Assembly: GCA_024403455.1 (NCBI GenBank)
Contig: JAKSRR010000016.1
Span: forward strand, 1 to 64,000
Direction of reading: 5' to 3'
DNA length: 64,000 nt
Source: Lachnospiraceae bacterium
GTDB lineage: Bacteria > Bacillota > Clostridia > Lachnospirales > Lachnospiraceae
Shown here: positions 4,839 through 52,743 of the stretch, one piece after another
How the letters are laid out: every line of letters starts with the position of its first letter
Numbering within the stretch: position 1 is the stretch's first letter
The notes under the pieces: model-generated
What the model saw: the letters and a program-made list of their open reading frames with translations, nothing else
What the model was told of the DNA's origin: nothing
Database searches by the model: none
Made by a program: the position numbers and the translations under genes

Positions 4839-5360
4839 TTATAAACTTTCGTTTCTAAAAATCCGCATTCCCATATTTAAAATATCATCATCCAGGACCG
4901 CAAATGTAATCGCTAATTCTGCCATAACATTTTCCTGTAAAAAATCTTCGCATGCCTTTTTAGCCACTTCCCAGGCTTCCTCTTTGGGATATCCATAAAT
5001 TCCTGCGGAAATAAGCGGAAATGCTATAGATGCACAATGATTCTCCAACGCAAGCTGAAGTGCTTTTTTATAGGCTCCATATAACGCCACTTTTTCGCCA
5101 TGCTTGCCGCCTTGATATATTGGTCCTACTGCATGAATAATATATTTTGCATCCAAGTGAAATGCTTCTGTAATGACTGCGCTTCCAGTAGGGCAAACAC
5201 CAATCTTATCACAGGCATCTTGTAATTCACCATAACCTGCCGCTCTAAAAATAGCACCACATACACCGCCGCCAGCTTGTAGCCTGCTGTTTGCAGCATT
5301 CACTACAGCATCCACTTTTAGTCTTGTAATATCGCCTTTTACTATAGTAACTTTTTGCAT
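4839..5360 (-). CDS. Macrodomain protein (O-acetyl-ADP-ribose deacetylase-like)
   Basis: A 173-residue single macrodomain of the MacroD/YmdB type. Signatures are GDITRLKVDAVVNAANS (adenine and ribose binding), LQAGGGVCGAIFRAAG (the glycine-rich loop), YIIHAVGPIY and PLISAGIYGYPKEEA (diphosphate loop). These proteins bind ADP-ribose, and the MacroD class removes mono-ADP-ribose from acidic residues or deacetylates O-acetyl-ADP-ribose. It is cytosolic. It lies 74 bp after an ADP-ribosylglycohydrolase gene and 26 bp before an HD hydrolase gene, all on one strand, so a joint role in ADP-ribose reversal is likely. Confidence 0.9.
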   Translation of the reverse strand: MQKVTIVKGDITRLKVDAVVNAANSRLQAGGGVCGAIFRAAGYGELQDACDKIGVCPTGSAVITEAFHLDAKYIIHAVGPIYQGGKHGEKVALYGAYKKALQLALENHCASIAFPLISAGIYGYPKEEAWEVAKKACEDFLQENVMAELAITFAVLDDDILNMGMRIFRNESL

Positions 5361-9613: not shown

Positions 9614-12600
9614 CTATTTCTTATAAAAAGGACTTAAGTTTATGAAAAAGCTTTGCAAATTATCTAATTTCTTACTATTTTCAAATAGGTATTCTAATAA
9701 CTCTTCCTGACGAGCCTGACCTAGGGTAAGTCTATATAAAGAAAGTATCTTTATTAATCTCCTATAAGAAAGTGTATCCCTACTAAAAGGATATAAAGGA
9801 ACAATTCTTTCTATCTTTATCATATCCTCCGACTCTCTAAGTCCCCAGTATGGTATTAGATCAGAAGATGTTCCCTTCTTCTCCTTCTTTTTTGCCTTTT
9901 CAAATAAATCTTTCCATATATCGTCTTTTACAGAACTGCTTCCATATCGTTTTGCCACATTTTGCCTGATGACCAAACACTCAAATCTATTAATTCTACC
10001 TTCTCTTTGTTCTAAATCTATAGGGTTTGACGGAATATTCCAGTGTACTATACGTCTACAATAATTGTGAAAATCAAGCCCCTCCTGTCCTATAGATGTG
10101 GAAGCTAAAACAAAAGGTCTAAATGGCGAATTAAAAGCATTTCTAACAGCCTTTTTTCTATCTCCATCTTTTTCTTCATTATCCCCCCTTGTAAAAGCCG
10201 TTGCAAAATGGCTCCTCATATTGGCAGACTTATATTTAGGAGGCACCTTTTCCTCTTTATCCTTAGTGCTATGTTTTACTTTATGTGAAAACGAGTCAAA
10301 AGTATCTGCTTCATATACACTTGTTCTAAAGTCCATAGACTCTTTTACCATCTGATGAAGAGATTCTAACAAATTCTCGTTATCATCAATGCCATTTGTT
10401 AGCAAATGGGCATATTCATCATACATAGCCTGGAAATTACCACACTTACAATAGTTTAATACATTCTTCCAATGCGCATCTTCACTTTGCTTTCCACAAG
10501 CAATTTCTATAACGGCAGTAGATTCCGGCGTATTCATTCGATTGATAAACATTCGCCCTATTTGACTTGTTAAATAGTTCTTATTAAAAACTTCGTCCCC
10601 TGCATAATGATTATATGTTCGAAGCACGCATATACTAGGGGAAGCAAGTGCCATATCCGTAAGAACTTCCACCAGATCATCCGGCTTTTTCCCTAGGTTT
10701 AATGTTCCTTCACTTGTATACTCTTCATAGAACTTTCTAACTTGACTAATATGTGCCATGAACCCCTTTGTGCGGCTCTCTTTTTCCTCACCTTTACCAT
10801 AGGAAGCGATTTCTACGGTATGGTTTAGCCAGTTTGTAACGTAATCTTCATCATCCAAAAGTATCGGAACCATGTAGTACCATCTATTATCTGCTAAACC
10901 TGCATTCTTTCCCTCAAATCTACTTACGAGTTTTTCGATTTTGTTGGATACTTCTTTTTCAATTTCACTAAGTGACATTTTTTTGTTAAAACACTTAATT
11001 GGGTCATAACATCCGGCAAGCGTTTTAGACGGATATAAAAGTGTAAATAAACTCATTCCGCTAAGCGCTGAATCCTTAACTGAAAAATTTAATCGCTGAG
11101 ACGGATATCTTTTATCTCCATCCGTGAAATACTTTACTTCAATCTGCTTTTCGTTTTCCTTGAGTGCACCTATTGTTCTTCTCTCTGATTCATAAGATAT
11201 GAAAGAAGATATCATTCTAGGAACCATCTCCCAAGAAGAAAAAATAAGTGTTTTGGAAAATCCTGTCGTATTCTCATATACACCCTTAGGCTCATAGTAG
11301 GGAACGCACGGGGGAATCCATAAAAGAAGCTCTGCGCTATTCTTAAATACGCACTTCATTACTCGCGCCAAACGAGCATTATTTAATGGAAGTTTCTCAT
11401 AATTATCAATCGCCTTCTTGGAAATCCAAAGAGATTTTTTATCTATTTTCCCAAGTTCATATGGATGATTTGCGAAATACTCTTCTACCACCTTTTTAAG
11501 TTTATATTCCTTCATAAACGAAAAAAGGTATGGTGAAGATTTCACATAGTCAATAGGAACATTTATAGCCTTTCCCATACCATCTAATACTTTCTGGGCA
11601 TCTAAATAACTAATAATGTCCTCCTTAAGTACCTTAAGCGGCTCTTTTGCATCTGAAGAATCTATGATATCAGCATTTTCTTTTTCCGATATTCTCTCTG
11701 TACGACAAACATTTTCATACATAGCTTCTTCAGCTTCATTCTTTACTGAAAGAAAAGCCTCATCTCCACTTGTAAATTCCTTAAGTTTTACTGAATAGTT
11801 ATTCCATACTTCTTCAAAATTACTACCTTTCTCATAGTGTCTTAAAAAATCCATCACCGATAGAAATTCGTTAAAATGCTCGTCATTATTCGTTTCATCA
11901 ATTTCTTCTAGGGTTGAATACATCTTATAAGGCGTAGCTGATAATAAAAGCATACGAGGTGGCTTTTTCGCATTAAAAAACTTATCAGCAAGCATTCCAA
12001 CCTCAGAATCAATTTCAGCATTTAATAAGTACTTAAAACGCTGAAATTCATCCATAATAACTAGATCCGGTTCTAATCTATCAAGTGTAATCTTTGCAAA
12101 AATAAGCCTAAGCGCCATCACAATATCTCTATAATCCTTTGGATTATCTTTATTTTTCTTTATGCCCTTAAGACCACTTAACAAAGTACTTAAAAAACTC
12201 TTTCCCTCTTTATATACCTTCTGCAGTTCGCCGCTTAATTGATGAATCATATATTTAAGGTATTTTCCGCCGGTATGATTATTAACAAGTGCCACTTCTC
12301 TCTCGTAATAGTCTTTCCTATAAGGCCAGGCTTTGTTTGCATTATCAATCATCATCTCTTCTAAAGCTGATTCATACTTTTTTATCTCTGGAAGCCGCTT
12401 TAATATAGCAAACATTAATGCTCGCTCTCTTGCAGTACCAGTGCCTGAAGTAAGTCTAAAAGAAGTATCAGGGGTAAGCGGAATAAGCTGGATATAACCA
12501 TTTCTTAGTTCCACATCCTTCTCCTGCTTAAATATATTAAGATGCTGCATAGAAAGACGGGAATAGGACGCATCCTCACTCTTAATATCCCTTGTTATTC

Positions 12601-12880
12601 GTAATTTATTTAAATTCTGATCGGCGATAGCACTATTAGAACAGATATAGACAACCTTAACTAGATCATCCCCTTCTTCTTTTCTAAGTTTCGCAAATTT
12701 TGCAACCGTTCCTCTAGCAATAAGAGTTTTTCCAAGACCTACCTCATCAGAAACAAGCACTCTCTTCTTTCCGCTACGGAACAGATAATCAATTCGCTCA
12801 ACGGTAGCTTTCTGAAAATCTTTAAGTCCGGATATAACCATGTTTTCAATATCATCTAACATATCCTCAACTCTAGCCAT
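9614..12880 (-). CDS. SF2 helicase of a predicted defence operon
   Basis: A 1088-residue SNF2/DEAD-like superfamily 2 helicase. Motif I is DEVGLGKT (residues 45-52), motif II is DEFQ (277-280), motif III LLLSATPYKM follows, and motifs V and VI are TSIGQEGLDFHNYCRRIVHW and QREGRINRFE near residues 950-980. The insertion between the two RecA-like lobes is very long. No methylase or nuclease domain is apparent. ATG 12880 overlaps the PLD gene stop by 8 bp, so translation is coupled. With PLD and DUF6361 genes it forms a three-gene set like those described in anti-phage systems; the closest named system I can suggest is Azaca, which I cannot confirm. Confidence 0.9.
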   Translation of the reverse strand: MARVEDMLDDIENMVISGLKDFQKATVERIDYLFRSGKKRVLVSDEVGLGKTLIARGTVAKFAKLRKEEGDDLVKVVYICSNSAIADQNLNKLRITRDIKSEDASYSRLSMQHLNIFKQEKDVELRNGYIQLIPLTPDTSFRLTSGTGTARERALMFAILKRLPEIKKYESALEEMMIDNANKAWPYRKDYYEREVALVNNHTGGKYLKYMIHQLSGELQKVYKEGKSFLSTLLSGLKGIKKNKDNPKDYRDIVMALRLIFAKITLDRLEPDLVIMDEFQRFKYLLNAEIDSEVGMLADKFFNAKKPPRMLLLSATPYKMYSTLEEIDETNNDEHFNEFLSVMDFLRHYEKGSNFEEVWNNYSVKLKEFTSGDEAFLSVKNEAEEAMYENVCRTERISEKENADIIDSSDAKEPLKVLKEDIISYLDAQKVLDGMGKAINVPIDYVKSSPYLFSFMKEYKLKKVVEEYFANHPYELGKIDKKSLWISKKAIDNYEKLPLNNARLARVMKCVFKNSAELLLWIPPCVPYYEPKGVYENTTGFSKTLIFSSWEMVPRMISSFISYESERRTIGALKENEKQIEVKYFTDGDKRYPSQRLNFSVKDSALSGMSLFTLLYPSKTLAGCYDPIKCFNKKMSLSEIEKEVSNKIEKLVSRFEGKNAGLADNRWYYMVPILLDDEDYVTNWLNHTVEIASYGKGEEKESRTKGFMAHISQVRKFYEEYTSEGTLNLGKKPDDLVEVLTDMALASPSICVLRTYNHYAGDEVFNKNYLTSQIGRMFINRMNTPESTAVIEIACGKQSEDAHWKNVLNYCKCGNFQAMYDEYAHLLTNGIDDNENLLESLHQMVKESMDFRTSVYEADTFDSFSHKVKHSTKDKEEKVPPKYKSANMRSHFATAFTRGDNEEKDGDRKKAVRNAFNSPFRPFVLASTSIGQEGLDFHNYCRRIVHWNIPSNPIDLEQREGRINRFECLVIRQNVAKRYGSSSVKDDIWKDLFEKAKKKEKKGTSSDLIPYWGLRESEDMIKIERIVPLYPFSRDTLSYRRLIKILSLYRLTLGQARQEELLEYLFENSKKLDNLQSFFINLSPFYKK

Positions 12881-14768
12881 TTTCTTTCACCGCCTCTCTA
12901 AAGGTAGCGTATAGTTCCTTAAATCCATCAGGAATAATACCATCCTCTGATATCGCATCCATAAGTGCATCAATCTCTTTAAGTTTTCTAGGTGCTACAA
13001 GAGCTGTTTTAAGCATTTTTTCATATAAAGGGGTGAGCATTTCCACCTTCTTCTTTCCATCCTCACCATAAACAGATACGTCGCCTTCAGAAGACTCTAA
13101 CGCACTTAGTATCATATTCTCACCAAGAAGAAAGGATACATATCTAAAAAAACAGACATCGTCTTTAATGACAGAAGATATAACCGCTTTCTCCCTGTCT
13201 TCAGGTAAATTTCCTAAGCAGAACTTAACTACCCTTTGAACCATCTTTTTGTCATCTCTAACGGATATAACAAAAAACTCTGAAAGTTGTTCCTTGCATA
13301 AATTCTTAAAAACCATCTCTTTAGCTAAAACTACGTTGTTATCCTCGTTTTCAGATAAAAGTGGCTTAATAGACATCTGGTAGTCAGATTCAAAATCTTC
13401 CATTTCCAAATAAATTTCATAATTCTTATCTTTTTCCACAACCTTACCGGATGGGTTAAGTCTACAAAGTCTTTTTATCTCCGAATCTAATATATTATTT
13501 TCTTCTTTACTATTATCCTGGATATTTTCCAGAGAAGCTGGTTCAAACGGACATTCCAGTCCTCCTAACTCTCCACCGCAAATTTCACTAAAAAGTTTTT
13601 CTGCTCTTAAGCTATTTTTATCCCCCTCCAATTTGATCATAAATTCAATATTTCCGCATACTGCGTTATGAGACGCATTTAAAGATCCTAAATACAGATT
13701 CTTCTCATACGCAAAAACTTTCGCATGGACATCCTGTTGCTTAAACACGACCTGATTTTCTAATCCATTTAGCGTACTTTCCGATAATTTCTCCTCTTGT
13801 CTACTAAACTCACAGGCACTTTCACCATCTATGACATCGTCTTTCATCACAAATATCTTGAAGTTATCTGCATCTTCTTTCTTTAACTTACTTAGGGACT
13901 CTCTTCTGGTAACTAATATATAGTCGCTATTGCGAACAGTCCCCTTTTTATTATTAAAAAATCGAATAACATCACCGCTCAAAAACGGAGACATAATAAA
14001 GATTTCATGCTGACTAGTTCCCTTTATGTTTCCCTCATAGCCACTAAACAATGGATAATCTGTTATGGAGTACTCCCCGCCGCTACTTTTGGGAATACCT
14101 GTTGGAATAAATTCAAAATCAGAAAATTCTTTATCTGCCACCCTAAAATGAATATAGGGTAATTCTTCAATTATCTTCTTTATCTTCCTTATTTTTTCTT
14201 TCTCCAGGGGCGTGTTTCCAAGATTTTTAGACAGAAATACTAAAAAGTCACAGATAGGAATATTCTTCTCTGTGTATATGGGATTTTCTTCTTTTATTCC
14301 GTCAAGATAAAAGGAAACATCCCAGCTTCTATCGAAGGTAAGATTACGACTAAGAATGATAATTCTATATAAAGGCATATCCTTTTCATCTACATACCTA
14401 ATAATCCAGAATTTCGGATGAAACGATGAATAGGACGTATTTTTTCTAGCCTTAACATTAGAAACTTGATATACCATCTGTTCTAATAAAATATAAAGCG
14501 GCGAAACCTTTCCAGGCATATGAATCTGTCCGTTTTCGCAAAAGAGTGCTATCTTATCCCCTGTTGTCCTAAGAGCTTCTAAAAGACATACTGGATTATT
14601 AAGAAGTTCACTATCTGTTTCCGCTGATAAACCAAGAGCAAGACATGCGCCTACTAGCGCATCAAAATCAAGGGAATAGGTTGTCGCAACTGCAAAATTA
14701 AAGTCATACCCTACAGGTGGGGATAGTATTTCACCATAGTCAAGTCTTTCATTACTAGGATTAAGCAT
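12873..14768 (-). CDS. Phospholipase D-like protein of defence operon
   Basis: A protein of about 631 residues with two HKD-like half-sites. The first has HPKFWIIRY followed by IILSRNLTFDRSWD; the second has DVHAKVFAYEKNLYLGSLN followed by ASHNA. This two-site arrangement is that of PLD-superfamily nucleases, which also appear in restriction and DISARM-type systems. ATG 14768 overlaps the DUF6361 stop by 8 bp; an in-frame GTG 6 bases upstream is the alternative. Its own stop overlaps the helicase start. The rest of the chain has no recognised domain. It probably supplies the DNA-cutting or nucleic-acid-binding part of the system (inference). Confidence 0.85.
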   Translation of the reverse strand: MLNPSNERLDYGEILSPPVGYDFNFAVATTYSLDFDALVGACLALGLSAETDSELLNNPVCLLEALRTTGDKIALFCENGQIHMPGKVSPLYILLEQMVYQVSNVKARKNTSYSSFHPKFWIIRYVDEKDMPLYRIIILSRNLTFDRSWDVSFYLDGIKEENPIYTEKNIPICDFLVFLSKNLGNTPLEKEKIRKIKKIIEELPYIHFRVADKEFSDFEFIPTGIPKSSGGEYSITDYPLFSGYEGNIKGTSQHEIFIMSPFLSGDVIRFFNNKKGTVRNSDYILVTRRESLSKLKKEDADNFKIFVMKDDVIDGESACEFSRQEEKLSESTLNGLENQVVFKQQDVHAKVFAYEKNLYLGSLNASHNAVCGNIEFMIKLEGDKNSLRAEKLFSEICGGELGGLECPFEPASLENIQDNSKEENNILDSEIKRLCRLNPSGKVVEKDKNYEIYLEMEDFESDYQMSIKPLLSENEDNNVVLAKEMVFKNLCKEQLSEFFVISVRDDKKMVQRVVKFCLGNLPEDREKAVISSVIKDDVCFFRYVSFLLGENMILSALESSEGDVSVYGEDGKKKVEMLTPLYEKMLKTALVAPRKLKEIDALMDAISEDGIIPDGFKELYATFREAVKENG

Positions 14769-15984
14769 ACTCACCTACCCCGCTTTCAAAAATATCCTTT
14801 ATGATGACTTTTGCATTACCAAATCTGTACTCCAAATAAGTTCCTGCAAACCACTTATTTACGTCAAATTCACCTGGGTGTGCCGTTTTCACACTCTTAT
14901 ACTTTTTAAGACTGTATTCTCTTTTGCAAATACTATCCTTTAATCCTTCTAAATCATCTTTTGCCATGCACTTTTGACAGTCAAATAAAAAGTCGGCTAG
15001 GCTCGAGTCCTTACCAACAGAAACCCTACTAAGAATAGCCATCATATCCACTTTCGAAAGTTTTGCAAAAGAGGGTCTAATGTTTTCCATTTCTTTATTA
15101 GCCTTCTTATTCTTGCCGTTTGAAACAATCAGGTTATAAATCACCCTAAGAGCATATGAAAAATCAGAGAAATCGGCTGCGAGACAATAGTCTCTTTGTA
15201 TTTCATCTGGAAAAAGTTTGATTGCTCCTTCCAACTCTTGAAAATCTTTCACTTTAAGAATATTTCTAAGGTTATTCCTTAAAATATACGAAAGCATAGA
15301 ATCTGGAAATGCAGTACATATGCATTCTTTTAGAAATTCCCCTTCTTCTTTCGTAAGTTTCATATGATAGTCATTACGCCAGTCAGTCCTATATGTGGGC
15401 ACTTTCCAGTAAGAACGTCTTCTAATATCCCCTGCTCCAGCATCATCATATTCTTTAGCGGCTTGAGACTCCTTTTTTCTGCTATCATCTTTTATATTGC
15501 CAACATTTATTCTTTCTTTTGTCTGTTTTTCGGCGCAAAGTACCTTAATATATTCAGAAATAGAGAGATTACTTTTTTTAAAAATGCCGTACTGTCTAAG
15601 TCCCGCCCAGTAAACCTCTGAGGGTGGTCTTTTTACCCAGCTTCCACCACTAAGGGATCTTTTACCAATAACACCTTCTTCACTCGCGTTTTCAGCAATA
15701 AAATGTTCTCCACAATCTTTTTCCGCCTTATCCAGCGCTTTTTTCATTTCATAAGGATTAACTTCCTTACTTCTTTCAAAATCCTTAAATATATATGACA
15801 CAACAAAAAAATACTTTGCTCTTGTCTGGATAGTAGACGTGCCAGGAAAAAAGATGTTAGCAAAGCCGTCTCTTACCGAAGCTATTCCTAATTCATCAAG
15901 TACTCCTGGCTCTGAAAGTAAACTTAGTACATCCAAAACCTTACTTCTTTCTGTTTTCGAAAAATCAATCCATCCTAAAGGCAT
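14761..15984 (-). CDS. DUF6361 family protein, first gene of defence operon
   Basis: A 407-residue protein starting LGWIDFSKTERSKVLDVLS, followed by the conserved block NIFFPGTSTIQTRAKYFFVV, which I recognise as the DUF6361 signature. Biochemical activity is unknown. There is no signal peptide and the content is mainly alpha-helical. The start is ATG 15984 with AGGA nearby. It is first in the operon, followed by PLD, helicase and the broken fourth gene with 8-bp overlaps at two junctions. A 207-nt leader precedes it and contains a short peptide frame and terminator, so expression may be controlled by attenuation. Confidence 0.85.
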   Translation of the reverse strand: MPLGWIDFSKTERSKVLDVLSLLSEPGVLDELGIASVRDGFANIFFPGTSTIQTRAKYFFVVSYIFKDFERSKEVNPYEMKKALDKAEKDCGEHFIAENASEEGVIGKRSLSGGSWVKRPPSEVYWAGLRQYGIFKKSNLSISEYIKVLCAEKQTKERINVGNIKDDSRKKESQAAKEYDDAGAGDIRRRSYWKVPTYRTDWRNDYHMKLTKEEGEFLKECICTAFPDSMLSYILRNNLRNILKVKDFQELEGAIKLFPDEIQRDYCLAADFSDFSYALRVIYNLIVSNGKNKKANKEMENIRPSFAKLSKVDMMAILSRVSVGKDSSLADFLFDCQKCMAKDDLEGLKDSICKREYSLKKYKSVKTAHPGEFDVNKWFAGTYLEYRFGNAKVIIKDIFESGVGEYA

Positions 15985-18628: not shown

Positions 18629-19315
18629 TCACTTCATAGTAAACTTGCATTTGGGGTAGTTACTACATCCTCGAAACTTTCCGTAGGGTCCCTGCCTTTC
18701 AATCAATTTCCCACTACATTCAGGGCATATCCCTTCCCTTACTTTAAATTCTTTTAATATTTTCTCACTCTTTACTAGTTCTACATGTTTTACTTTGTTT
18801 ACTAGATTACTTTTTTGTTTTCCCGCAGTAATTGTATTCACAATCTCATGCACCTGATCGATTGTAAATACTTCCTTTTGGTACTTCCTAATAGTTGAGA
18901 GTAATTGTTCAATACGTATTGTCGGCTGCGTTGCCGTGATATTCGTCGCCTGTGTTCCTATAAAAACCACCATAGAGATAAATCTGTCGTTGGGAAGTTT
19001 CAGTAGTTCCTGTAACGTCACAATATGACCAAAGTTCTGCCTATGTGGATTCTTGAAAAAGTATTTTTTACCATATATACTTTGACACCACTCCTCGCGC
19101 TGTTCATCTCCAATAATTATTCCTTTATAATTCTTAGCTTCAATAACAAAAATTCCATAAATAGAAACAAGAACATGATCTATTTGCACAGACTTCTTTG
19201 GTGTCAAAATCAACACATCATTGATAAGAACATAACGCTCTTTATCTAACTGTTTTAAGAGTCCCGATATTCTTATTTCCCCAACCGTTCCCTTAACCGA
19301 TGAATATATTGACAT
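18629..19315 (-). CDS. NERD-domain nuclease-related protein with Zn ribbon
   Basis: A 228-residue protein. Residues 1-120 form a NERD domain (nuclease-related, PD-(D/E)XK-like): GTVGEIRISGLL, then DHVLVSIYGIFVIEAKNYKG with the Asp and Glu-Ala-Lys, and HRQNFGHIVTLQELLKL. Residues about 195-228 are a topoisomerase I-type zinc finger, with cysteines in ICPECSGKL and CSNYPKCKF. Both parts point to DNA. It follows the iteron-controlled ATPase gene by 57 bp in the same direction, which suggests a two-gene unit. The arrangement parallels the ATPase/PD-(D/E)XK operon at 49085-52537. Confidence 0.9.
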   Translation of the reverse strand: MSIYSSVKGTVGEIRISGLLKQLDKERYVLINDVLILTPKKSVQIDHVLVSIYGIFVIEAKNYKGIIIGDEQREEWCQSIYGKKYFFKNPHRQNFGHIVTLQELLKLPNDRFISMVVFIGTQATNITATQPTIRIEQLLSTIRKYQKEVFTIDQVHEIVNTITAGKQKSNLVNKVKHVELVKSEKILKEFKVREGICPECSGKLIERQGPYGKFRGCSNYPKCKFTMK

Positions 19316-19372
19316 TCATTTTCTCCATAGATAAGGCTGTGACTTCACTAATCCATGAGCAATAATTTCTAC

Positions 19373-20416
19373 TCATCTTTCCACCTGATACTGTACGTAG
19401 TTTTCAAATCTCGGTAAGCGCATTCGCAAAACGCCACGCGTAGAAACATCAAGGATGCCTTTATCTCTAAGCCTACTTCTATACTGAGAAAACTCATTTT
19501 TCTTTTTCTTACTTTTTTCTAATAACTCACTGACATCCATCGAGCTCCGATTCGCCATAAGTGATAAATACCACTGATCCGTTTTGGATAATTCTGACCA
19601 GATTTTGTCATAGACATATTTAGCCAACGCCATATCATACTGCGCAATAACTTCTTCGGTTAGTTTCTTCTCATCGCTCTCCCATACATATTTCCCAAGT
19701 ACTTGATACGCAAACGGATAACCCTTTGTAGCTAATGCAAGTTCCATAGCATCATCATCTGAAATATTGAATATTTTTTTATAATTCATTTTTACAAGAG
19801 TGATATTCAATGGTTCCATCTCATATTTAGGCGCCCTATATAAAAAAGTCAGTGTTTCCTCATTTTCAAGATTATGAACATTTTCGTATAATCCGGCCAT
19901 TAAGAGATATATTGGTAGTTCCTGTCTTATCATTATTTGAAAGGTACTAACAAGCTGTTTCATGTAGTTATTATTTGTAACCTCATCTACAGAAACCAAT
20001 AACTTTCTATTACTTTTCTTAACCTCTTTCAATATAATTTCCAAAGCTGACTCAATATCTGCTATAGGAGGCTTCTTTTCTACTGCCACTCCTATCCCAA
20101 ATCCCGTAAGATTCAAATTCGCCTGTGCAAATTTCCTAACAAATTCATCTCTATCATATAGCTTTGCCACCAAACTCTGTAACATATCCCGTTCTGTACT
20201 CAGGTCAACGACAATCCACTTTTTGTCTTCTTTCAGCTGTTTTTCTATGGCTGTCATCGTAACAGTCTTTCCTGACCCTCTTATGCCAGTCAGCATAAAA
20301 CAAGAGTTCTGAACAATATCTGCGTTCATCTCATCAACGATTTCTTCTATAATCAATTGTCTTTCGATATACTGATAAGGAACAATCCCAAAGTTAATTG
20401 CGAAGGGGTTTTTCAT
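19373..20416 (-). CDS. Orc1/Cdc6-like P-loop ATPase with C-terminal winged-helix-like domain
   Basis: A 347-residue AAA-superfamily ATPase. Walker A is GIRGSGKT (residues about 44-51), Walker B is KLLVSVDEVTNNN (about 140), and FLYRAPKYEMEPLN looks like sensor 1 or the lid region. Residues about 275-347 (MDVSELLEKSKKKKNEFSQY, RLRDKGILDVSTRGVLRM) look like a winged helix, as in Orc1/Cdc6-type proteins. It is clearly paralogous to 51500-52537 (shared NPF/NPY start, GIRGSGKT/GVRGSGKT, YLLM-GLYEN, FLYRAPK). Three pairs of repeats (20418-20493) start two bases before the ATG; the first contains the AGGAG ribosome site. A NERD nuclease gene follows. Confidence 0.85.
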   Translation of the reverse strand: MKNPFAINFGIVPYQYIERQLIIEEIVDEMNADIVQNSCFMLTGIRGSGKTVTMTAIEKQLKEDKKWIVVDLSTERDMLQSLVAKLYDRDEFVRKFAQANLNLTGFGIGVAVEKKPPIADIESALEIILKEVKKSNRKLLVSVDEVTNNNYMKQLVSTFQIMIRQELPIYLLMAGLYENVHNLENEETLTFLYRAPKYEMEPLNITLVKMNYKKIFNISDDDAMELALATKGYPFAYQVLGKYVWESDEKKLTEEVIAQYDMALAKYVYDKIWSELSKTDQWYLSLMANRSSMDVSELLEKSKKKKNEFSQYRSRLRDKGILDVSTRGVLRMRLPRFENYVQYQVER

Positions 20417-20417
20417 T

Positions 20418-20493
20418 TATATACTCCTATATACTTTGTTTTATTTTATATACTCCTATATACTTTGTTTTATTTTATATACTCCTATATACT
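20418..20493 (-). repeat. 29-bp iteron array of ATPase gene
   Basis: The 8-mer TATATACT occurs six times, at 20418, 20428, 20447, 20457, 20476 and 20486. The pattern is 8 bp, 2-bp spacer CC, 8 bp, 11-bp linker, so each pair repeats every 29 bp. On the coding strand the spacer supplies AGGAG, so the first unit also carries the ribosome binding site. The array fills most of the 102 bp between the ATPase start and the next gene. Candidate operator for the ATPase itself. Confidence 0.85.
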
Positions 20494-20518
20494 TTCGTCA
20501 AGCAGCATCCATTCCCTC

Positions 20519-23527: not shown

Positions 23528-23703
23528 AAGATACATAGGGCAAAAGCCTTGAAGACTCGACGAGCTTGCTCATAAGAGTCTGAAAACGGCTTTATGACCC
23601 TCAAAAACATGAGAATGTAGCCATTTTCGCAAGAAAATGTGCGGAATTCGAATGTTTTTAGAGATTTCGAGAGTGCAACGCACGAAGAAATCTCATGTAT
23701 CTT
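23528..23703 (+). ncRNA. Multi-branched structured element, copy 1
   Basis: A 176-bp stretch with almost continuous complementarity. Outer arms AAGATACAT (23528-23536) and ATGTATCTT (23695-23703) close it. Inside are AAAGCC/GGCTTT enclosing AGACTC/GAGTCT and GAGC-TT-GCTC; then CATTTTC-GCAA-GAAAATG with a GNRA loop (23622-23639); then GAGATTTC/GAAATCTC enclosing GTGC-AAC-GCAC. The element at 38993-39149 has the same order of hairpins and shares short segments such as ACATGAG and GCGAATG/CGAATG. A structured RNA or a hairpin-rich MITE are both possible. The plus strand is given by analogy with copy 2. Confidence 0.55.
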
Positions 23704-33710: not shown

Positions 33711-34946
33711 TTATTTACTAAATAACGCGTCAATCGCGTCCTCCTTAAGTTCTGCACCGATTACACAAAGCTTACCTGTTGTCTGTGCAACGCCATCTCT
33801 GACAGAACGTTCCTCAGGTACATAATCAAAGAAGATCCAACCACCCTGTTCAGAAGGAACCATACCCTTTGCTCGCAGGATGGTACCATAGTCACCGCTA
33901 TCCAGCTTGCTAAGTATTGTCTCAATTTCTTCCTTGCTGTACTTCTGAGGGGTTTCCTTGCCCCAAGAAGTAAATACCTCATCAGCATGATGATGGTGAT
34001 GATCGTGACAACCACAGGTACAGTCCGGACCGTGATCATGATGATGTTCGTGATCATGGTCGTGATGATGGTGTTCGTGCTCTTCTTCGTCATGATGATG
34101 TCCACAGCTACACTCACCATCGTGGTGATGATGCTCATGGTCGTGATCATGATGGTGATGTTCATGCTCGTGATCGTGGTCGTGATGATGGTGTTCGTGC
34201 TCTTCTTCATCATGGTGATGTCCACAACCGCACTCACCATCGTGGTGATGATGCTCATGTTCGTGATCGTGGTCATGATCATGGTGGTGATGTTCATGCT
34301 CATGTTCTCTGTGCGCAAGTACTTCTGCTAACATCTCGTCAGCAAGACTCTTTCCACCTTCTATAGCTTCTAACAACTGGGCTCCCGTAATGTCTTCCCA
34401 AGGCGTAGTTACGATGGTTGCCTTTGCATTATGCTCCTTTAACAGTGCATCCACCATCTGTAGCTTCTCATCATTCATGCCAGAAGTACGACTTAAAATA
34501 ATAGCGCCAGCATGTTCAACCTGGTTCACAAAAAACTCACCAAAGTTTTTAACATACATTTTGGCTTTAGATGCATCCACAACTGCGATAGCACTATTTA
34601 ATACCACGCCATCTCCTAATGCTGCATCATTCACTGCCTTCATAACATCAGAAAGCTTACCTACACCAGAAGGTTCGATGATGATACGATCCGGCGTATA
34701 CTTGTCTAATACCTCTTTTAAGGAAGTTCCAAAATCTCCTACTAAAGAGCAGCAGATACATCCGCTGTTCATCTCTTTAATTTCAATACCTGCTTCTTCT
34801 AAAAATCCACCATCGATACCGATTTCACCGAACTCGTTCTCAATCAGAACTACCTGCTCGTCCTTAAACGCCTCCCCTAAAAGTTTCTTAATCAGGGTTG
34901 TCTTTCCAGCACCTAAAAATCCGGAAATAATATCAATCTTTGTCAT
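33711..34946 (-). CDS. G3E/CobW metallochaperone GTPase with His-rich insert
   Basis: A 411-residue GTPase. Walker A is SGFLGAGKTTLI, the metal-binding motif is NSGCICCSL (CxCC), and IIIEPSGVG and the switch region follow. Between the GTPase and the C-terminal CobW domain is an insert of about 110 residues (residues 215-325) made almost only of His, Asp, Glu and a few Cys in repeated blocks such as HDHEHEHHHHD and DGECGCGHHHDEEE. The pattern is known from zinc/nickel chaperones (YjiA/ZNG1 type). The C-terminus is WIFFDYVPEERSVRDG. It leads an operon with the next CobW-like gene. A zinc role is likely, not shown. Confidence 0.9.
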   Translation of the reverse strand: MTKIDIISGFLGAGKTTLIKKLLGEAFKDEQVVLIENEFGEIGIDGGFLEEAGIEIKEMNSGCICCSLVGDFGTSLKEVLDKYTPDRIIIEPSGVGKLSDVMKAVNDAALGDGVVLNSAIAVVDASKAKMYVKNFGEFFVNQVEHAGAIILSRTSGMNDEKLQMVDALLKEHNAKATIVTTPWEDITGAQLLEAIEGGKSLADEMLAEVLAHREHEHEHHHHDHDHDHEHEHHHHDGECGCGHHHDEEEHEHHHHDHDHEHEHHHHDHDHEHHHHDGECSCGHHHDEEEHEHHHHDHDHEHHHDHGPDCTCGCHDHHHHHADEVFTSWGKETPQKYSKEEIETILSKLDSGDYGTILRAKGMVPSEQGGWIFFDYVPEERSVRDGVAQTTGKLCVIGAELKEDAIDALFSK

Positions 34947-49084: not shown

Positions 49085-50851
49085 TCATCTTTCAAAAACA
49101 TCTTTCACGAAGGCATCTCCCAGTTTAAAAAGATTCAAGCCGTTTCTTGTCACTTCAATTAAATCACTAGAAAAATCAGATATTAAATCATCTCTGTCTC
49201 GCTGTGTAATCACTGACTTACTATTAATCTTGTATTCTAACGCCAACGTCCAACGAAATGTCATGGCTTTATTATTAGATTTGGAAAAGTACTCTTTAAT
49301 ATCTTTTTTTACTTCAACGTATTCTTTAGATTCTTTCCCATCTACACCAGGATAAATTTCACGAATCATTTTTAGAACATCGGACTCATTATCTATTAAT
49401 TTAGGCGCATATATTCTACCAATTGTTTTCTTTCTGTAATCTTCCTCCCAATACTTTTTTAATTTTTTAATATTATCTTTAGAATAATCAAATATAAAAT
49501 TCTTTATCGTCGCTCCACTACCTTGAGCATGACCATCCAGCATATTATACTCTATCCAGATTTTACAACCTTTTTTATACTCTTTGTCTAAGCATTCACT
49601 AAAATATTCAAAATTATCATAAGCCCATTCGCACCAATTTCTTGCCAAATCTGTTTGGGACCCACAATAAATAAGTACCTTATAATCTCCATATTTAGCA
49701 GTATAGTCTATTTCATTTAAATACTGCTTAACTTTTTTAATAATTTCATAATCCTTACTACGTTTAGAAAAATCCAAAAAATCTTTGATTGCTAATTTAT
49801 ATCCATATGGATCAGAAACACCCGCTTTACCAAAATGGTATTGTATCAGATTATCATTAATACTTGATTTCAAATCTCTAATAACAGGTTCGTGTTGATA
49901 TTTTTCTTTATTCACCACAGTTTCTAACACATTCTTAACAATCTCCTCGTTATGTTCAACTTGTAAATTTCTTGTATATGTTTCAAATATTCTCTTACCC
50001 TCCATAAGTTTAGCATTCAAATTCTTTAGTAAATGTATGTCTTCCCCATATTCTATATTTTCGATGATAACCTTCTCTACATCCGAATTAAACTTATCAT
50101 ATGTTTCGTCCAATATTTCAATGTATTTTCTAATATATGTGATGGCTTCGTTGTCTTCTTTATCTTTGATTAAAGTCTCCAGTATGTTCCTTACCTTTTC
50201 ATAATCAATTAACTCATAACCTTCATATCTAAGATTCTTTATATCCTTTTGCTCTCCTAACCACCAATTAGCAGGTTCATTTATATCAAGAAAAACAAAG
50301 TAATTGTCATATTCCGGATACGGATACTTGGCATTTATATAATGTCTATATCTTTGACATTGCCAATCATGTTCTCCAGAACCAAACTTATTTTCTATTG
50401 TAATTGTGAAATCGTTACCTTCAATAAAAATATCTATCTTCTTATTCTTGTTCGATTTATTTTCAGTCTCTTCTTCAGCAACATTTGTCTTAGTTTTTCT
50501 TCTGTTACTAATTTCTTTTTCCAATTTTTTATTGTCATCAAATAGCTTTTTATTTTTAATATCTTTCATATAGTGATCAAAAAAAACTGGATCTGCTGCA
50601 ACCTCTGTCTCAATTGTTACCCAATTTTCAAGTTTTTTGTTCCAATCAACATTCACAAAAATACTTTTAAAAAAAGCAATAGCAAAATCTGACTTTAAGC
50701 CATGTATTTCTCTTTTATCGAATAACCACGCAAGCGTATTGGAATGTCGAATTTCATGATCTCCATTTCTCATCACCTTAAAAGGGTTAAAATGATCCAC
50801 ATAAGTAATATCTTCCAAAATTCTAATTGCATTTTTTTCCTTTTCTATCAT
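49085..50851 (-). CDS. PD-(D/E)XK nuclease (PF14281-type), long copy
   Basis: A 588-residue protein of the PD-(D/E)XK superfamily. N-terminal features are EIRHSNTLAWLFDKREIHGL, then IDIFIEGNDFTITIENKFGS (Asp and Glu-X-Lys) and EHDWQCQRYRHYINAKYPYP. These match the PDDEXK_4-type (PF14281) nucleases. The C-terminal 350 residues are helical with no recognised domain. It starts 29 bp inside the previous nuclease gene. It is third in an operon after the iteron-controlled ATPase and a broken nuclease copy. Target DNA is unknown. Confidence 0.85.
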   Translation of the reverse strand: MIEKEKNAIRILEDITYVDHFNPFKVMRNGDHEIRHSNTLAWLFDKREIHGLKSDFAIAFFKSIFVNVDWNKKLENWVTIETEVAADPVFFDHYMKDIKNKKLFDDNKKLEKEISNRRKTKTNVAEEETENKSNKNKKIDIFIEGNDFTITIENKFGSGEHDWQCQRYRHYINAKYPYPEYDNYFVFLDINEPANWWLGEQKDIKNLRYEGYELIDYEKVRNILETLIKDKEDNEAITYIRKYIEILDETYDKFNSDVEKVIIENIEYGEDIHLLKNLNAKLMEGKRIFETYTRNLQVEHNEEIVKNVLETVVNKEKYQHEPVIRDLKSSINDNLIQYHFGKAGVSDPYGYKLAIKDFLDFSKRSKDYEIIKKVKQYLNEIDYTAKYGDYKVLIYCGSQTDLARNWCEWAYDNFEYFSECLDKEYKKGCKIWIEYNMLDGHAQGSGATIKNFIFDYSKDNIKKLKKYWEEDYRKKTIGRIYAPKLIDNESDVLKMIREIYPGVDGKESKEYVEVKKDIKEYFSKSNNKAMTFRWTLALEYKINSKSVITQRDRDDLISDFSSDLIEVTRNGLNLFKLGDAFVKDVFER

Positions 50852-51486
50852 TTCTTTTAATCATATCCTTTCTTGTGATTAAACTAATTGTTAATTTATT
50901 GTCTGTTTTTCTTTCTTTTTCAGTTGATATTATATCACCCAGAATATCTCTTATAGTTTCATAAGAAATAAAATCAAATTCCGCATACCTACTTTTATGC
51001 ATGTAATCAAAGTCTTTAGGTTTATCTATATCAAGAAATATAAACCTATTATTTGCCTTTCTTTCACCATATTCTCCCTCCACATAATTCCTATAATCTT
51101 CACATTGGCCACCATGCGCTTCTGATCCATACTTATTCTCTATTGTACAAGTAAAATCTTCTCCAATGATTAATATATCTATTCTGCGTCTATCAATCCC
51201 ATCTTCCCTCTGCTTTTCGCCATTAATTCTCTGTTCAAGGATAATACGTTCTATTTTCCCTGCATCTGGAATATGATCTTTATCTTCAAATGCCTTATCA
51301 AAAAACCGTTGTGCAAATTTTTCTTCGAAACCATGACTTGCCAGAGGATTTAATAACCAGCTCAAAAAAATCGAGTGTTTATTTTCCATCGCCTCCTGTC
51401 TCAAAATCTTAAAAATATTTTGAGAACTATTGTCTATCCTTTTTATTTTCCTTTATCTGATTTTTATATTCTTCAAGTAACTGCAT
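50823..51486 (-). pseudogene. PD-(D/E)XK nuclease, short copy with N-terminal frameshift
   Basis: ATG 51486 (AAAGGA upstream, 14 bp after the ATPase stop) begins MQLLEEYKNQIKENKKDRQ and stops at 51427-51429. Removing one base from the T5 run on the plus strand at 51440-51444 continues into RIDNSSQNIFKILRQEAMEN and then the intact nuclease part (HSIFLSWLLNPLASHGFEEK, IDILIIGEDFTCTIENKYGS). The intact core is 51404-50823, 193 residues, shorter than its neighbour. The active-site Asp and Glu-Asn-Lys are kept. Either the gene is inactivated or the base is a sequencing error. Confidence 0.65.
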
Positions 51487-51499
51487 AATTTTTTCCTTT

Positions 51500-52537
51500 C
51501 TACGCTTCCCTTACAAACTCCGCAAACAGTGGCAATGTGAATTTAACATATCCTCTTAGTTCTCCGCTCACAATCCCCTTCTTAATAAGTCTGTTTCTAT
51601 AGGGATTAAACTCATTTGTTTCCCAGCCTAGCACTTCTCTGATATCCTGCACTTTTCCCGATTCCACTTCTGCTACTGCTAAGGCAAGTTCTCTATCTTT
51701 CGATGACAGCTCAGACCATATCTTTTCATATACATATTCCGACAGATACTGTCTGTAATCATCTATAACATTTTTATAGTCACCACCATTAGCATAGGTT
51801 AGATATCCAAGCACCTGGAATGCGTAAGAATAGCCACAGGTTAACTTCGCCATTTCATGCGCATCCTCTTTTGAAACCTCTAAGACCTTCTGATAGTTGC
51901 TTGCAATCGCGCTCATATTTAGCGGCTTCATCGGTGACTTAGGCGCCCTATAGAGAAATGTTAAATTTTTTTCGTCCTGTAGTTCACTGATATTCTCGTA
52001 TAGGCCTGTCATCAAGAGATAGATTGGCGCATCCTGTCTAACAAATATTTGAAACGCCCCAGCAAACGCCCTCATATATTCATTATTCACCGCTTCATCA
52101 ACGGTAATTAAAAGTTTCTTCTTATGCTTCTTTAACGACTTAAGCATCGCAGTAATGGCTGTTTCCATATCAACGATTTTCGCGGTTTTCTTAACTTTCA
52201 CATCAATTCCAAATAAAGAAAGACTAATATCTAGTGATTTAAAAAATTCACTGACCGCATTATTGCTATATAGTTTCGCGCCTAAACTTTGAAGCATATC
52301 CGTAGAAGAGTTAAGCTCTACGGTAATCCAATCCTCTTCTTCCTCCAGCCTATTCTTGATAGAAGACATCAGTACTGTCTTGCCCGATCCACGCACACCG
52401 GTAAATATAAATACCTGGTTTGATGGTAGATCCTCTTCAAAGGCTTCAATAATTGCATCCGTCTGCAACAATCTGGATATCTGCTGCGTTGGTTCTTTCC
52501 CAAACGTAAGCGTATAAGGGTTTGCTTTTTTTCTCAT
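51500..52537 (-). CDS. Orc1/Cdc6-like P-loop ATPase with C-terminal winged-helix-like domain
   Basis: A 345-residue paralogue of 19373-20416. Walker A is GVRGSGKTVLM (residues about 46-56), Walker B is KLLITVDEAVNNEYM, then YLLMTGLYENISELQDEKNL and FLYRAPKSPMKPLN. The C-terminal 75 residues (VQDIREVLGWETNEFNPYRN, RLIKKGIVSGELRGYVKFTL) look like a winged helix. ATG 52537 is covered by the first repeat of an iteron array (52537-52612) of the same geometry as at 20418, but different sequence. It is followed by two PD-(D/E)XK nuclease genes. Divergent plus-strand operon begins at 52744. Confidence 0.88.
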   Translation of the reverse strand: MRKKANPYTLTFGKEPTQQISRLLQTDAIIEAFEEDLPSNQVFIFTGVRGSGKTVLMSSIKNRLEEEEDWITVELNSSTDMLQSLGAKLYSNNAVSEFFKSLDISLSLFGIDVKVKKTAKIVDMETAITAMLKSLKKHKKKLLITVDEAVNNEYMRAFAGAFQIFVRQDAPIYLLMTGLYENISELQDEKNLTFLYRAPKSPMKPLNMSAIASNYQKVLEVSKEDAHEMAKLTCGYSYAFQVLGYLTYANGGDYKNVIDDYRQYLSEYVYEKIWSELSSKDRELALAVAEVESGKVQDIREVLGWETNEFNPYRNRLIKKGIVSGELRGYVKFTLPLFAEFVREA

Positions 52538-52612
52538 TTACTGTCCTTTACTGTTTTTAACTATTTTTACTGTCGTTTACTGTTTTGGTTATATTTTACT
52601 GTCGTTTACTGT
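52537..52612 (-). repeat. 29-bp iteron array of second ATPase gene
   Basis: TTTACTGT occurs six times, at 52537, 52547, 52566, 52576, 52595 and 52605. The layout, 8 bp, 2-bp spacer, 8 bp, 11-bp linker, 29-bp period, equals that of the other ATPase gene. On the coding strand the first unit's CC spacer gives AAAGGA, the likely ribosome site. The first repeat overlaps the start codon's first base. Candidate binding site for the ATPase. Confidence 0.85.
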
Positions 52613-52743
52613 TTATGTAAAGCCGTAAATTCCTACCTTGTTAGTTCGAATATTTTCAACACGTATCACACGTCTATTTTCTATAATGCTCTCATACTTA
52701 AATCGGAGACACAAAATACCCACCAAAAAAGGAGAATAAAAAT

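Follow-up and report, generated by a model that had tools for sequence, protein, structure and literature searches.

The question raised by this locus is what constitutes its functional unit. A gene encoding an AAA+ ATPase lies between an array of short direct repeats on its 5′ side and a NERD-domain gene on its 3′ side, and the initial annotation of the window (the whole stretch of DNA analysed, 64,000 nucleotides from a Lachnospiraceae bacterium of gut or rumen type) had taken the repeats, the ATPase and the nuclease together as one self-regulated module. Comparison with the relatives of the ATPase leads to a smaller unit, comprising the array plus the ATPase, of which a nuclease is not regularly part.

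The features of the two modules in the window are collected in Table 1. The six copies of an 8-mer originally noted ahead of the module A ATPase gene are present as six AGTATATA boxes, arranged as three 29-bp units with two boxes 10 bp apart in each (TRF score 160). The likeness that had been drawn with module B holds equally; this has six ACAGTAAA boxes with identical 10/19-bp spacing, and PDDEXK_4 open reading frames (ORFs) downstream. The last box of module B and the start codon overlap by one base. In module A the gap between the ATPase and NERD genes is 57 bp. A third paralogue in the same genome (G000:C6:47894-48913) has ten GTTGTAAA-type boxes.

Table 1. Positions of the components of modules A and B in the window.
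Feature	Position	Strand	Remarks
Module A AAA+ ATPase with C-terminal winged helix	19373..20416	-	347 aa; from translation, conserved residues, AlphaFold model and fold matches
Module A gene with NERD domain and Top1 zinc ribbon	18629-19315	-	downstream of ATPase
Module A private array, six AGTATATA boxes	20418..20493	-	start spacing 10, 19, 10, 19, 10
Module A probable −35, TTGACG	20496..20501	-	directly upstream of box 1; letters and place checked
Module A probable −10, TATAAA	20474..20479	-	16-bp spacer; overlaps second box from upstream end; assigned by eye
Module B AAA+ ATPase	51500..52537	-	345 aa; 43-44% identity to module A ATPase
Module B private array, six ACAGTAAA boxes	52537..52612	-	start spacing 10, 19, 10, 19, 10, as in module A
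Module B probable −35, TTTACA	52616..52621	-	upstream of array; assigned by eye, letters and place checked
Module B probable −10, TAAAAT	52593..52598	-	17-bp spacer; overlaps second box from upstream end; assigned by eye
Module B PDDEXK_4 ORFs, two	50823-51404 and 49085-50851		downstream of ATPase

The module A ATPase has a Walker A motif (G44xRGxGKT51) and a Walker B motif (D144-E145). Invariant positions in both alignments include the lysine of Walker A, the aspartate of Walker B (D144) and R194. In the AlphaFold model (pLDDT 93.6, pTM 0.89) there is a winged helix, with the recognition helix formed by residues 306-318. The best Foldseek match is the P. abyssi Walker-type ATPase 2qen (E 2.1e-10). 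The early assignment of an Orc1/Cdc6-like fold with a C-terminal winged helix is upheld by matches to archaeal Cdc6/Orc chains, the best of which span 2.9e-10 to 1.8e-9 (1fnn_A 2.9e-10, 2qby_A 6.6e-10 and 1w5t_C 1.8e-9), with modest TM-scores of 0.39-0.53; 2qby is an origin-bound archaeal pair. Further fold matches are to STAND/NLR proteins and to TnsC structures. At the level of sequence the Pfam ORC-CDC6-like family is matched at E 0.26 only, by P0002, and is absent among the matches listed for P0001, while a PDB profile search gave Orc1 at E 0.91 only. Against ATPase_2 (PF01637) the two window proteins score 30.0 and 32.2 bits, compared with a cut-off of 33.2, and the third paralogue scores 38.9. 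Neither Pfam nor the model gives an effector or sensor domain beyond the AAA+ and winged-helix parts. PADLOC returned weak matches only, the best (2.8e-5) covering residues 25-75 of P0002, together with longer, weaker ones to mad8. The median dN/dS is 0.04 over those close pairs for which dS was usable (28 of 97), and the ATPase is therefore under strong purifying selection.

The relatives were gathered by protein similarity alone, the presence of an array playing no part. Removal of 14 redundant and 15 partial proteins gave a full-length non-redundant set of 191, from which two were left out and 189 had enough upstream sequence. Four or more boxes are found upstream in 177 of these 189, and these 177 form the covariation set; seven of the 12 members with fewer than four boxes are distant relatives, and within the close subfamily 171 of 176 have the array. 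The array is thus a constant partner of the ATPase, as had been proposed at the outset. In a first-pass set (124 relatives from 136), six or more matches to one 8-mer lie upstream in 101 of the 124, compared with 4/401 control ORFs and 15/372 shuffles.

The geometry of the array is regular. In the 177 members 639 of 1102 box intervals are exactly 10 bp and 233 of 1102 are 19 bp, where the site finder favoured spacings of 9-11, 18-20 and 28-30 bp equally. The slot is ~9.7 bp, such that two boxes and one empty slot make 29 bp, and the median number of boxes per array is seven. The sequence of the box varies by subfamily (CAGTAAA, AGTTATAAC, AATTATGAA, GTTGTGGAA, AGATATAAA and others) while the spacing is constant. 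A detector of this layout gave 312 raw matches in 2.39 Mb of loci (both strands counted) compared with 0 in codon-block shuffles. These merge into 178 arrays, of which 172 lie directly 5′ of a family gene or fragment; the proportion is not a genome-wide rate, as the loci were fetched around family genes, and it comes from a somewhat larger set in which overlapping or duplicate loci are counted. No boxes above background are found at the 3′ end of the ATPase gene (n = 177).

Some arrays have no family gene behind them. Just 3′ of the third paralogue an array of TCTAACAA boxes with 10/19-20 spacing (L033 6805-6873, on G000:C6) is convergent to the paralogue gene; it has no gene of its own, and its boxes differ from those of the paralogue. 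Other solo arrays lie at L074 4162-4249, L326 3099-3160, L309 2341-2399 (low complexity) and L133 4217-4296 (near a contig end). These five distinct arrays are most easily read as relics, which they possibly are. A relative with 27% identity on a viral contig (L183) has six boxes upstream of position 4998 with a spacing of 11/21 rather than 10/19. The geometry of the array may thus depend on the protein subfamily.

The array sits on a sigma-A-type promoter. In a sample of 140 relatives of <80% identity, the first box is preceded by TTGACA (at most one mismatch) starting 8 bp away in 9 members, 7 bp away in 23 and 6 bp away in 8; no other listed offset has more than four. It was on the basis of this family-wide peak that the −35 element of module A was called. 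A −35 match (at most one mismatch) near the first box is present in only 44 of the 140, with a background of 261/2720. With the usual spacer the −10 element falls on box 2, as read by eye in printed examples. In the small sample of three pairs that could be compared, 2 of 152 box positions are mutated against 13 of 96 in the spacers.

The arrays appear private to their genes. In the 2.23-Mb genome (82% complete) there are three exact AGTATATA box pairs, all within the module A array, and for all three paralogues no exact box pair was found away from its own gene in that 82%-complete genome. The exact pair of the L234 box is likewise found nowhere else in G436. A regulon was considered and rejected, since none of the four arrays, in the two genomes, has an exact box pair beyond its own gene. 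Box pairs with one or two mismatches are few elsewhere; for modules A and B they are about as many as in reversed controls, and for the third paralogue and L234 the numbers of weaker matches are too small to compare with the control. Self-regulation, which the initial annotation had suggested, would be the likeliest role, given the position of the array on the promoter and four arrays having no other exact targets. Within genomes, equal boxes in two paralogues occur in 0 of 95 pairs compared with 2.0 expected (P 0.13, not significant; a duplicate, identical on two G135 contigs, had been removed beforehand), and avoidance of shared boxes is suggestive only.

The covariation of the recognition helix with the box was analysed in four ways; the tests are mixed in strength, and the covariation is partly phylogenetic. 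Raw mutual information gives a weak signal (P 0.024 for the winged helix and P 0.017 for helix 303-318), and its highest-ranking column belongs to the AAA domain. When pairs are contrasted and AAA identity is controlled for, change of the box is coupled more strongly to columns of the winged helix than to the others (P 2.9e-6, for pairs that are non-independent); the helix alone gives P 0.044, and column 310, located inside helix 306-318 of the model, is first of 315. In nearest-neighbour prediction of the box from 24-residue segments, 306-329 is best of 66 at an identity limit of 0.6 and 296-319 is best of 66 at 0.5; at 0.45 the helix region is not best. The nearest neighbour by whole protein predicts the box about as well (1.71 vs 1.68; 2.41 vs 2.50). 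Over 85 disjoint pairs the helix gives P 0.0075 and ranks 8 of 84 segments, and other segments of the protein also track box change. Because of this covariation, the divergence of the boxes by subfamily and the lack of other exact targets, it is quite likely that the ATPase itself reads the boxes.

A same-strand gene lies within 300 bp downstream of the ATPase gene in 108 of the 177 array-bearing members. Thirty of these 108 first downstream genes were scanned by Pfam; none matches a family named as a nuclease and five match nothing. The 30 include one PHP phosphoesterase, one UvrD helicase and one AAA_14-DUF4143 protein, none of which was counted as a nuclease; DUF4143 we take to be nuclease-like in fold. 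When all 108 are tallied by family, DUF4143 accounts for three and NERD and PDDEXK_4 for two at most each, and the window itself supplies one NERD and one PDDEXK_4 to this tally. The pairing of ATPase and nuclease as originally read therefore fails as a general rule on these neighbour counts, and the neighbouring nuclease genes look coincidental. The tabulation of homologues that the initial annotation had proposed is thus divided in its outcome, the repeats near the gene standing (177/189) and a nuclease as first downstream gene not (0/30 sampled). When as many as three neighbours per side were clustered, no conserved set emerged; clusters of 28 and 21 proteins, the two largest, occupy mixed positions, and the largest group in the same place comprises eight sugar transferases. 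Many of the sampled neighbours are housekeeping genes and some match defence genes, and there are PDC-S26-type nucleases beside module B. A three-gene operon at 9614-15984 of the window has PADLOC matches to ZacC, ZacB and ZacA (E 0, 9.6e-141 and 2.3e-85); this Zac defence operon is 2.6 kb from the module A NERD gene.

Near-identical copies of array and gene occur at unrelated sites, the shared sequence being bounded by the array on one side and by a point shortly past the stop codon on the other. L228 and L229 have 97.8 and 97.6% DNA identity to L238 at unlike sites; the homology in L238 starts at the outermost box (~63 bp before the start codon) and stops 15 bp past the stop codon. In the pair L110 and L230 (95.5%) the edges are 101 bp upstream and 0 bp after the stop, and for L036 and L142 (90.7%) they are 130 bp upstream and 19 bp after it. 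Across the different-site pairs overall the homology ends at the ATPase stop codon or within 27 bp beyond. Among the remaining close pairs, some have only one flank in common, and others match on both sides of the gene and seem to be orthologues. The same cassette, of ~1120 bp, is present in G1002, G526, G967 and G547 and is truncated in G977 and G981. In G975, G972 and G436 the corresponding site lacks the cassette, and its flanks are 91-96% identical.

At the single site compared (L363, L346 and L364) the position of the cassette is taken by 51-66 bp of intergenic DNA in the relatives without it, and neither a clean insertion nor a target duplication was seen. Gain of the cassette would be a simpler explanation than its loss, the direction not being proven. 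For module A, a DNA search of 40 relatives for empty sites gave diverged matches only. The shared cassette does not have the make-up of a DNA transposon or insertion sequence; it contains the ATPase gene only and no recombinase, and no terminal inverted repeats were noticed by eye. A 63-bp sequence located ~60 bp to the left of the L238 cassette recurs, with 85-95% identity, elsewhere in the genome of L238 and in several more genomes of the Butyrivibrio group; the neighbour of this cassette may be a small dispersed repeat.

The ATPase family is patchy in its distribution, with several copies in some genomes and with decayed fragments. The family-level sample has a match in 39 of 200 genomes (single-protein search, E 0.001) and the order-level sample in 47 of 392 (profile search, E 1e-10), the order being Lachnospirales to judge from the record names. 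In the phylum sample five of 398 genomes match; four of the five are in the same family and the fifth is a weak partial match. The genome studied here is included in each of these counts. A profile scan of named records confirmed at least 549 stretches, where the same kind of scan with the single protein P0001 gave no matches. The best 80 of these at least 549 have mostly Lachnospiraceae, Butyrivibrio, Pseudobutyrivibrio, Roseburia and Blautia titles, and some are metagenome bins labelled Clostridia, Eubacteriales, Bacilli, Bacteroides or bacterium only. An origin in viruses was rejected, as viral contigs hold only two distant relatives. The family is apparently undescribed as a large group of mobile DNA-binding ATPase genes with private arrays; a literature search covering titles and the starts of abstracts (preprints and most subscription papers lie outside it) gave no description of it.

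These observations are best accommodated by an AAA+ ATPase that is mobile, regulates its own gene and assembles on its private array, a reading to which we assign a probability of roughly 0.6. In this reading binding, autorepression, head-to-tail assembly, a role for ATP, and the mode of movement and purpose of the cassette are inferred. The locus would be a self-contained mobile cassette of ~1.1-1.2 kb, running from a promoter through the box array and including one ATPase gene, with the sigma-A promoter threaded through direct 8-10-bp boxes. The recognition helix (306-318) of the ATPase would read the boxes. Since the repeats are direct and occupy slots of ~9.7 bp (10/10/9 or 10/19), neighbouring subunits would probably pack side by side along a single face of the DNA in head-to-tail order. 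As box 2 overlaps the −10 element, such an assembly would exclude RNA polymerase and so repress its own gene, and ATP binding or hydrolysis may make and break it. The cassettes would have been disseminated through Lachnospiraceae and their close relatives, with helix and box diversifying as a pair such that subfamilies read different boxes. The eventual function may be self-control of a selfish gene, defence by the gene alone or a role akin to that of an initiator. Simple autorepression would require fewer boxes than the median of seven.

This excess of boxes over the need of a plain operator would suit a replication initiator with its iterons, in which the array would act in cis for replication or maintenance, the ATPase would be the initiator dedicated to it, and autorepression would be a by-product of initiator binding. 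The Orc1/Cdc6-like fold is in keeping with this, as are gene-adjacent repeats that differ between paralogues, with several per genome at different sites. Yet the array is placed on a bacterial promoter as expected of an operator, the Pfam ORC-CDC6-like match is at E 0.26 only (P0002), and among the neighbours examined, which are not conserved, neither a replicon nor a helicase-loading partner was seen; the initiator is thus rather unlikely. We consider improbable, too, a minimal single-gene chromosomal element of mobile replication or maintenance type, where an Orc1/Cdc6-like protein and an iteron array would make up a recombinase-free unit of ~1.1 kb, and incompatibility between iterons would drive diversification of helix and box into a readable recognition code. 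A solitary defence gene would be an autorepressed AAA+/STAND-like sensor that is released from the array on phage infection and acts alone. The patchy distribution, the multiple copies in some genomes, the decayed fragments, the STAND/NLR fold matches, the ZacABC operon near module A and the PDC-S26-type nucleases by module B would all suit such a sensor. Nonetheless it is unlikely, for the protein has no effector or sensor domain besides AAA+ and winged helix, the best PADLOC match is 2.8e-5, and many sampled neighbours are housekeeping genes.

If the arrays were operators of a different conserved regulator, the ATPase would be merely a regulated gene, and it would not surprise that raw mutual information fails to single out the winged helix or that other segments track the change of box. 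Such a shared trans-acting regulator is very unlikely, because it leaves unexplained both the divergence of the boxes along with the ATPase subfamily and exact pairs occurring nowhere else in two genomes; moreover, at two of the three identity limits no other single segment predicts the box as well as the recognition-helix region does. A two-component module of ATPase and downstream nuclease, with the array controlling both, describes both modules of the window, where the 57-bp gap would permit co-transcription, and nuclease-like neighbours may hide among the five of 30 genes lacking a Pfam match and the three of 108 with DUF4143. As a general rule it is largely refuted and in our judgement extremely improbable. 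None of the 30 genes matches a nuclease-named family, the two window families reach two of 108 at most, neighbours are not conserved, and the cassette homology stops at the ATPase stop codon or at most 27 bp after it. It could be a local arrangement in one strain.

The autoregulated ATPase with its private array resembles several known systems in part. In iteron-controlled plasmid Rep systems direct repeats lie upstream of the gene for a winged-helix reader. The repeats here are likewise upstream of the gene for their putative reader, and autorepression and incompatibility would follow; the differences are that the protein is an AAA+ ATPase and not a Rep protein, that the cassettes are chromosomal, and that no replicon was seen. 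ATPase_2 (PF01637), which we take to be the Pfam family of 2qen, is brought close by the 2qen fold match (E 2.1e-10) and by the borderline Pfam score of the window proteins. Arrays as a general trait of ATPase_2 were rejected, since inspection by eye of 29 other PF01637 loci in the class revealed no regular 10/19 array; L395 was excluded from these, as it belongs to the array-bearing family. None of the 29 matches the family profile better than E 0.002, placing them outside the family, and 19 of the 21 strongest PF01637 matches differ in having open frames of 464-531 aa. TnsC and, presumably, IstB as an AAA+ regulator of transposition beside it share the character of an AAA+ ATPase that binds DNA, as predicted for the present protein, and TnsC structures are among its fold matches. 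The present family differs from them in having no conserved partner gene, a sequence-specific box array and no inverted repeats noticed by eye.

Haloarchaeal orc/cdc6 genes lie beside their own origin recognition boxes (ORB) in multi-origin genomes (PMC3528665, PMC3936714). The likeness extends to an AAA+ and winged-helix fold, to recognition repeats beside the gene itself, and to several diverse pairs per genome at different genome sites. The present ATPase family is in contrast bacterial, with direct 8-10-bp boxes, 10/19-bp spacing and a sigma-A-type promoter; it is not recognised by sequence as Orc1/Cdc6, the likeness being known here from fold and gene layout. By analogy, archaeal Orc1/Cdc6 with ORB may be regarded as the closest functional precedent found, with no claim to membership of that family.

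Nearly all the members examined, in a family of at least 549 stretches, seem to carry upstream a record of their own DNA target. If this is true, a protein-DNA recognition code would be readable from sequence. A cassette the size of one gene, which includes no gene for a recombinase, occurs at unrelated positions in related genomes and raises the questions of its means of movement and its purpose, and the tempting reading of the locus as an ATPase-nuclease module is corrected. Two further features were observed in the window. A Clostridiales-1 RNA (RF01699) is located at 23529-23702 on the plus strand with 110 bits. At 34036-34308 there are ATGATCATGGTC-type tandem repeats within the minus-strand ORF 33711-34946, where they probably encode a His/Asp-rich stretch.
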